A program made the position numbers and the translations under genes. The notes below the pieces were generated by a model. That model saw only the letters and a list, made by a program, of their open reading frames with translations, was not told where the DNA came from and ran no database searches. This document shows, one piece after another, positions 1-1,232 of a stretch of 40,156 nucleotides of DNA. Position 1 is the first letter of the stretch; each line of letters begins with the position of its first letter. Source of the stretch: an uncultured Bacteroidota bacterium (GTDB taxonomy: Bacteria > Bacteroidota > Bacteroidia > Flavobacteriales > Flavobacteriaceae); contig CACKBZ010000009.1 in the NCBI GenBank assembly GCA_902598525.1, positions 1 to 40,156 on the forward strand, in the 5' to 3' direction.

Positions 1-52
1 ATTGTTAATAACTTTACTTAAAACATTGAATATCAGTGCTTTATGTTAAGAG

Positions 53-118
53 TTAGCATTCACAACAAGTGCAATCACATGAATTTTGACAATTACACTT
101 TACACAGTTACATTCCAT
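53..118 (-). CDS. Possible cysteine-rich micropeptide (21 aa), metallothionein-like or Cys leader peptide
   Basis: An ATG at 118 opens a 21-codon frame ending in TAA at 53-55. Nine of the 21 residues are cysteine (positions 3, 5, 8, 10, 14, 16, 18, 19, 21), as CNC, CNC, CDC and CTCCEC blocks. The DNA is not a simple tandem repeat, and both TGT and TGC codons are used. CxC spacing of this kind is typical of metal-thiolate proteins such as metallothioneins. A run of Cys codons could also be an attenuation leader for a gene beyond the window's left edge. The frame stays open upstream to a stop at 164-166, but without another ATG. No TAnnTTTG element lies upstream. It faces away from the tRNA. 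I do not recognise a known family, and whether it is translated is unproven. Confidence 0.4.
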   Translation of the reverse strand: MECNCVKCNCQNSCDCTCCEC

Positions 119-166
119 AATAAATTTTAAATCATGTAGAAGATAATGAAAATTTAAACTAGATTA

Positions 167-196
167 CTGAATAATTTAATTATATACATATTTTTG
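167..196 (+). promoter_or_regulatory. Bacteroidota-type promoter for tRNA-Arg
   Basis: TATTTTTG at 189-196 matches the TAnnTTTG -7 consensus exactly. CTG at 167-169, 19 nt upstream, is one base away from the TTG -33 element. The mature tRNA starts 9 nt after the -7 element. The same promoter could also serve the antiporter gene behind the tRNA. Confidence 0.5.
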
Positions 197-204
197 CAAT
201 TAAT

Positions 205-277
205 GGGCAATTAGTTCAACTGAATAGAACAGAAGATTACGGCTCTTCAGATGGGGGTTTGAGTCCTCCATTGCCCT
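205..277 (+). tRNA. tRNA-Arg(ACG)
   Basis: A full cloverleaf can be folded. Acceptor stem 205-211/270-276 has 7 perfect pairs. D stem is 214-217/227-230. Anticodon stem is 232-236/244-248, with loop 237-243 and anticodon ACG at 239-241. The variable loop has 4 nt. T stem is 253-257/265-269 with one G-U pair. CCA is not encoded. A20, C35 and G36, known arginine identity bases, are present. Oddities: position 19 is A (224 is A20; 223 is A19) instead of G, and position 56 (260) is U instead of C, so the elbow pair G19:C56 is exchanged for A19:U56. The discriminator would be U73, which is unusual for bacterial tRNA-Arg. A15-U48 (Levitt pair), U8-A14 and G18-U55 are intact. ACG would need A34-to-inosine editing to read CGN codons, which are rare beside AGA in this window. 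Confidence 0.85.
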
Positions 278-290
278 CTAATTTTAAATT

Positions 291-1232
291 TTGGATTTTT
301 TAGGTATTTTATTTGGTGTTATACTTCTTTCTCATGGTGGGGATTTACTTACTAAATCCTCTGTTGATTTATCATATAAGTTTTCTATTCCTAAAATAAT
401 TATTGGGATGACAGTTGTCTCATTTGCTACATCTGCTCCTGAGCTTATTGTAAGCTTAAATGCTACTTTAAATGGATTTTCAAGTTTTGCTCTTGGAAAT
501 GTAATAGGCTCAAATATTGCAAATATTGGATTGGTTCTTGGTATAATTATAATTATTTACCCTATAACATTACAGAACAGGTTTTATAATTCGGATTTTC
601 CAATTTTGATGATTTCAACGTTTTTATTTTATATTTTATTAACTACTGGTAGTAGAATTTCTAGAATTGAGGGAATAATACTCCTTGTATCAATTTGTGT
701 AATTCTTATCTATCTATTTATATATCAAAAAAAAAATATATCTGAGTTTTCAGATATAAATGATATATCAAGCATTTCAGTTCCTAAATCAGTTTTCTAT
801 GTATTCTTTAGTGGTTTACTTCTATGGCTTGGCTCTGAAACCTTGATTAAGTCTTCTATATCTGTTGCAAATGAATATGGAATATCAGAGAGGGTAATAA
901 GTATATCAATGGTTGCAATTGGGACAAGTATTCCTGAATTAGCTGCATCTGTTGTAGCATCAATAAAAAAGCAAAACGATCTTTCTATTGGAAATCTTAT
1001 AGGATCTAACATTTTTAATCTTCTTGTAGTAATCGGAATAACATCTACTGTCATGCCAATTGAAAAAATTGATTCTAAAATTATATTTAACGATATGTTA
1101 TGGGTAGTCTTTTTCTCAGCTTTAATTCTACCGTTAGCATATTTGAGTAGAAGGAATGTTTTAACAAGAAAAAAAGGGATTATTCTATTAATATTGTATT
1201 TAATTTTTATAATCCCTTTACTAGTAAATTAA
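291..1232 (+). CDS. yrbG: Calcium/sodium antiporter, YrbG (CaCA) family
   Basis: Inner-membrane cation/Ca2+ exchanger of 313 aa. The two inverted alpha repeats that form the transport site are visible: FATSAPE followed by GNVIGSN near residues 45-75, and GTSIPE followed by GNLIGSN near residues 208-240. Each is set among hydrophobic helices, about ten in total. Length matches YrbG-type proteins (~310-325 aa). The start is the TTG at 291: a TAA lies two codons upstream (285-287), the first ATG would remove the first helix, and the N-terminus aligns with the family by eye. It begins only 13 nt after the tRNA and probably shares its transcript. It converges with glutamine synthetase (10 nt between stops). 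Transported ion in this organism is inferred from the family. Confidence 0.9.
   Translation: MDFLGILFGVILLSHGGDLLTKSSVDLSYKFSIPKIIIGMTVVSFATSAPELIVSLNATLNGFSSFALGNVIGSNIANIGLVLGIIIIIYPITLQNRFYNSDFPILMISTFLFYILLTTGSRISRIEGIILLVSICVILIYLFIYQKKNISEFSDINDISSISVPKSVFYVFFSGLLLWLGSETLIKSSISVANEYGISERVISISMVAIGTSIPELAASVVASIKKQNDLSIGNLIGSNIFNLLVVIGITSTVMPIEKIDSKIIFNDMLWVVFFSALILPLAYLSRRNVLTRKKGIILLILYLIFIIPLLVN

Follow-up and report, generated by a model that had tools for sequence, protein, structure and literature searches.

The window, the whole 40,156-nt stretch of DNA that was analysed, starts with the first base of its contig (C9 of genome G000; the genome is 1.17 Mb and 79% complete), and its left edge carries a gene for a micropeptide of 21 residues (Table 1). 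The gene reads from an ATG at 118-116 to a TAA at 55-53 and its translation is MECNCVKCNCQNSCDCTCCEC, with cysteines at positions 3, 5, 8, 10, 14, 16, 18, 19 and 21 (43% Cys). Length, location and cysteine positions are as given in the original prediction, which did not state that the frame is on the minus strand. The start codon is separated by 86 nt from a divergent tRNA-Arg gene, beyond which lies a gene for a yrbG-like exchanger. If the micropeptide gene is transcribed on its own, this A+T-rich gap must carry its promoter and start signals. TAnnTTTG is a promoter motif of Bacteroidota. No such box is present within 200 nt upstream of the window micropeptide; among 17 copies from the same genus one has it within that distance (L010, at -123), and it lies directly upstream of the copy in G028, a genome of another genus. 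Because the window opens at contig base 1, the left neighbour of the micropeptide can be read in relatives only.

Table 1. Features of the micropeptide locus in the window and of associated RNA elements elsewhere.
Feature	Position	Strand	Basis or context
Conserved box AAAGTTATTAACAAT	1..15	-	Precedes an apparent structured RNA gene in 15 relatives
Micropeptide gene, 21 codons + TAA	53..118	-	Frame, conservation in relatives, codon-level constraint
A+T-rich stretch, micropeptide start to tRNA-Arg	119..204	-	Upstream region
tRNA-Arg (ACG)	205-278	+	Divergent from micropeptide; context only
yrbG-like Na/Ca exchanger, PF01699	291-1232	+	Context gene; used to locate the locus in relatives
Apparent RNA gene, examples	L003:988-1156; L009:517-818 (strand given for these two); 13 more genus loci	-	Box and fold
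Hairpin with terminator-like stem, examples	L299 about 2613-2720; L212 about 826-930	+	Viral loci

Conservation and constraint within the genus

A search with the yrbG protein over 60 genomes (the source genome and 59 relatives) gave matches in 47. The micropeptide was found by profile search in 18 of the 25 genomes of the genus, and these are exactly the 18 in which yrbG turned up; the seven others, all incomplete (54-87%), yielded neither. At 17 same-genus loci, that of the window included, a frame with nine cysteines at identical places lies upstream of yrbG, and both the cysteines and their spacing are invariant in the alignment of these copies. In four of the 17 an earlier start extends the called frame to 22-36 aa; counted from the aligned ATG, these too have 21 aa. 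The eighteenth copy, in G004, keeps the whole frame, the nine cysteines and their spacing, with ATA in place of ATG, which may be a real change or an error. Histidine is absent from the genus copies. In part of the genus a 119-aa frame (L035:10128-10487, minus strand) separates tRNA-Arg from the micropeptide; it is absent from the window and has no match in Pfam, NCBIfam or PADLOC.

Such a cysteine content is exceptional in this DNA. Of the window's 322 frames that start with ATG and encode 15-40 aa, the next most cysteine-rich reaches 25%. Resampling the window 200 times under a first-order Markov model (rather than by an exact shuffle) gave 87,689 such frames, none of which combines nine or more cysteines with a cysteine content of 40% or higher. 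The earlier argument that 43% cysteine is very unlikely to arise by chance is borne out by both comparisons.

Across 17 species, pairwise comparison shows no difference (0%) at the first two positions of the cysteine codons, against 36% at the third; the remaining codons differ in 36, 29 and 50% at positions 1, 2 and 3. TGT and TGC replace one another at the cysteine codons, every change there being synonymous, and the other residues vary. Median dN/dS is 0.15 (72 of 136 pairs usable). Selection therefore acts on the protein, and translation of the frame is strongly indicated. The sequence checks proposed at the outset, among them alignment of the locus in relatives and comparison of synonymous with non-synonymous change, thus came out in favor of a conserved coding frame.

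The apparent adjacent RNA gene and other cellular copies

An apparent structured RNA gene comes after the micropeptide in all 15 relatives whose sequence extends far enough. Ahead of it stand the box AAAGTTATTAACAATTT, which deviates at a single base in L019, and then a promoter-like stretch; as cut to a terminator-like stem, the RNA gene measures 164-170 nt at seven loci or 301-302 nt at eight. Its consensus fold has 44 pairs, of which 21 show at least one compensatory change. Rfam at gathering scores identified only tRNAs at six genus loci, and the matches from permissive Rfam scans all fell short of the gathering scores. The box at the edge of the window is the sole remnant of this region there, since the contig ends at that point.

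These flanks bear on the main alternative that accompanied the original prediction, namely that the frame is a cysteine-attenuation leader, on which ribosomes stall at the cysteine codons in starvation and so control a downstream sulfur gene. A very short frame dense in cysteine codons would suit such a leader. However, on the left side of the locus, where the leader reading would place a sulfur gene, the relatives examined have the RNA gene, and beyond it either a frame of lipoprotein type or a pirin gene in convergent orientation. No sulfur gene is evident downstream in the five genus loci listed (eight proteins scanned); one of the proteins scanned is MsrA (methionine sulfoxide reductase), encoded some kb off, beyond pirin. 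The RNA gene, moreover, has a promoter-like stretch and a terminator of its own.

The profile built from the 17 copies was found in three of 299 genomes of the family: the source genome, G022 (same genus) and G028 (another genus). Within this second genus the micropeptide occurs in two of 22 genomes, G028 and G1048, in gene contexts that differ from those of the first. The G028 copy, MDCNCKSCNCNNSCDCSCCDC, lies between a lipoprotein-like frame and an apparent tRNA 3' end at the contig edge (read by eye; ARAGORN calls none), and the G1048 copy, MNCNCKNCNCDNSCSCNCCDC, adjoins tRNA-Val. In both, the stop codon of the micropeptide runs straight into the ATG of the following frame (TAAATG), which leaves no room for an attenuator. 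Attenuation also requires no particular spacing of cysteines, whereas the exact spacing is common to bacteria and phages (see below). On these grounds an attenuation leader is very improbable.

Searches with a wider profile recovered the source genome alone among 395 genomes of the order, and likewise among 395 of the phylum. A DNA pattern of eight cysteine codons, applied to genome contigs, gave no clean relative among the matches listed (at least 119 stretches), a result silent as to absence because the pattern is too loose. The three cellular contexts are all near tRNA genes, so that insertion of mobile DNA at these places would fit.

Copies in viral genomes

Frames of the same kind were found in viral contigs, which had not been foreseen. 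In IMG/VR the eight-cysteine DNA pattern returned clean relatives together with much poly-cysteine noise. The pattern with the ninth cysteine and the stop codon gave at least 99 clean loci, and two more scans, with the ATG included, brought the running total to at least 202 loci encoding at least 132 distinct peptides; the locus count is a lower bound, and the contigs are possibly redundant. As the search imposed the cysteine pattern, its invariance in the viral copies is not independent evidence. The in-frame ATG was not imposed in the first viral set and is nonetheless present at 99 of 99 loci, 97 of which give a peptide of 24 residues or fewer. Measured from the nearest ATG, length is 20-23 residues in 200 of the 202 viral loci listed, and none of the 202 has an extra cysteine, though the pattern allowed one. 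Beyond the imposed cysteines the viral consensus is C-[ND]-C-[KQ]-x-C-[NK]-C-G-[TK]-S-C-x-C-x-C-C-[DN]-C. The residues between the cysteines are chiefly N, S, K, D, T and G, with histidine and aromatic residues near zero. A tblastn search of the phages collection with the window peptide and one viral peptide gave no match, for which the low-complexity filter may be the reason.

The mirror image of the spacing, searched with the same stop codon in the same collection, gave no clean locus among the 120 matches listed, versus 78 of 120 for the forward pattern. A frame that lies under the gene-calling limits and has neither annotation nor family might be suspected of having arisen by chance; this control, the Markov resampling and the occurrence in most genomes of the genus all contradict that reading, to which we attach next to no probability.

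Representatives of ten clusters of neighboring viral proteins were compared with PHROGs. Two matched the large terminase, and one each a clamp loader, tail sheath, DNA primase, exonuclease, holin, thymidylate kinase and dehydrogenase; the tenth had a weak match without function. Nearest to the clamp loader is that of a 462-kb phage, at 58% across 73% of the query, and next come those of phage PAU and the Prevotella Lak phages, at about 36%. The micropeptide itself was not detected, at E up to 0.1, in LR756500, phage PAU or Lak-A2, which were found through the clamp loader. Among 80 distinct viral upstream stretches a Shine-Dalgarno-like core occurs in one, and the stretches average 61% A. A-rich upstream regions lacking a Shine-Dalgarno sequence are a trait of Bacteroidota. 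The neighboring genes and the upstream composition suggest that the viral copies lie among the genes of large T4-like phages, probably with Bacteroidota hosts. The source genome itself looks flavobacterial: across residues 1-1117 its SecA shares 63% identity with a Flavobacterium SecA, against 56 and 54% for two other Bacteroidota, and it aligns only piecewise with the three further bacteria compared. A search for T9SS families matched nowhere, not even in the 14 controls, and so does not help to place the taxon.

The commonest phage neighbor is a gene for an FAD-dependent dehydrogenase, within 5 kb in 34 of the 99 loci listed, so that no gene accompanies the micropeptide throughout. In PADLOC the dehydrogenase had a single weak match, and two other proteins had no match. 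A viral hairpin with the loop ATTCATAGC lies within 90 nt 3' of the micropeptide in 24 of the 99 listed viral loci; its stem covaries, with six variants that all pair perfectly, and a terminator-like stem comes after it. In eight further loci the paired hairpin is away from the peptide and precedes the FAD-dependent dehydrogenase, in two of them with a small frame in the gap. The dehydrogenase had been considered as an operon partner of the micropeptide; this was dropped, because hairpin and stem remain beside the dehydrogenase even where other genes separate it from the peptide. The hairpin seems to belong to the dehydrogenase gene and is a possible cis-regulatory RNA.

Many of the neighboring phage proteins open with similar short stretches (among them ISESELISLIEK and KESELVDLIEK; for example in L167, L229 and L359), which may represent a common signal for head targeting.

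Relationship to metallothioneins

The micropeptides show the compositional traits of the metallothionein class, with very high cysteine content, CxC and CC motifs, and few or no aromatic residues. Known families, the bacterial SmtA/BmtA and MymT among them, gave no match: three members queried against Pfam and NCBIfam matched no family at E up to 1 (short queries have little power), and PHROGs had no match for the micropeptide. The sole PDB profile hit was the wheat Ec-1 metallothionein (2kak), at a non-significant E of 7.8; the two have a CxCGxxCxC-like stretch in common, and the resemblance is probably convergent. As no family model matches and Ec-1 is the only PDB hit, the micropeptide appears to be metallothionein-like rather than a member of a known family. 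The original description of a possible minimal metallothionein-like thiolate peptide is partly supported, the frame and its nine-cysteine pattern being conserved; no link to any known family was found.

Three kinds of metallothionein invite comparison. The beta-domain of mammalian metallothionein forms a Zn3Cys9 cluster (PMC10243857). It is likewise rich in CxC, coreless and equipped with nine cysteines as ligands for one cluster. It differs in being part of a longer protein with another cysteine order and spacing, and no sequence relation was found. Among bacterial metallothioneins, those of SmtA and Pseudomonas type have a longer, folded chain. PMC7387436 names Zn3Cys9His and Cd4Cys9His clusters for them, and they resemble the micropeptides in being bacterial and cytosolic and in having nine cysteines; they differ in using histidine ligands as well, which the genus micropeptides lack, and the micropeptides have no match to them in Pfam or NCBIfam. 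The same paper describes a divergent SmtB-type repressor beside the gene for the cyanobacterial type only. The divergent neighbor of the micropeptide is tRNA-Arg/yrbG, and neither an SmtB-like repressor nor any other metal-sensing regulator was recognised in the part of the neighbors scanned. Very small fungal metallothioneins mark the lower end of the size range at 22 residues according to PMC12508003, which places them in the same class of size and cysteine density; they come from different organisms, and the micropeptides, with 20-23 residues and nine cysteines, are likened to them by size and cysteine density. The open-access papers searched yielded no account of a phage metallothionein, which does not prove that none has been published.

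Proposed function

A chain of 20-22 residues that is both short and polar would have no hydrophobic core. With nine thiolates at fixed spacing on such a chain, and scant aromatic residues or histidine, metal clustering is the simplest reason for keeping every cysteine. The nine thiolates would probably wrap a cluster of d10 metal ions (roughly three of Zn or Cd, or several of Cu(I)), through which the peptide might serve the cytoplasm as a buffer against metal or thiol stress. Metal binding we infer from cysteine spacing and composition. Large T4-like phages, probably of Bacteroidota, would bear the micropeptide near lysis or replication genes, and the copies found near tRNA genes in cells probably arrived with mobile DNA of this kind, after which the genus retained its copy at a single locus. 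The buffering role, the hosts of the phages and the direction of transfer we likewise infer. Taken as a whole, the likely reading is a gene that is translated into a metallothionein-like micropeptide, which forms a metal-thiolate cluster and serves in buffering, with cellular copies derived from phages.

A thiol peptide that is no metal buffer is unlikely, though it deserves some weight. It might act in redox or persulfide chemistry, hold an Fe-S cluster, or strip zinc from a host protein in infection, and the position of phage copies near lysis and replication genes, some of them beside the FAD-dependent dehydrogenase, would suit takeover or thiol chemistry. However, a fixed spacing of nine cysteines with few other conserved side chains fits a cluster better than a protein contact, hairpin and terminator-like stem separate the dehydrogenase from the peptide, and the fixed copy in a cellular genus speaks against a role in infection only. 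Short cysteine-rich genes may also encode precursors of modified (RiPP-like) peptides. Most frames, however, total 20-22 residues with no leader region, and no modification enzyme was recognised in the scanned part of the genus and phage neighbors, so that a precursor is highly improbable.

The preferred reading, a metal-thiolate cluster peptide, can be extended. The micropeptides may constitute a family of metallothioneins carried by phages, no larger than the smallest metallothionein size encountered in the literature consulted, that would act as an infection-time metal or thiol buffer of large T4-like Bacteroidota phages, became domesticated in one genus, and was missed through length limits; on this extended proposal our judgment is evenly divided. 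If it is correct, metal-thiolate cluster chemistry enters phage biology. It would also provide an example, backed by the mirror-pattern control, of a conserved gene family that is invisible to standard annotation, and genes of this kind would be missed as a class because they are shorter than the length limits of gene calling. The micropeptide would also rank among the smallest gene-encoded metal-cluster proteins, and is short enough for direct synthesis. A longer form exists on one viral contig of 158,420 bases (L284), where a 36-residue frame, MRNRQNCNCENCKCQKACNCMKCNCSKSCDCACCDC, reads like the motif repeated one and a half times.
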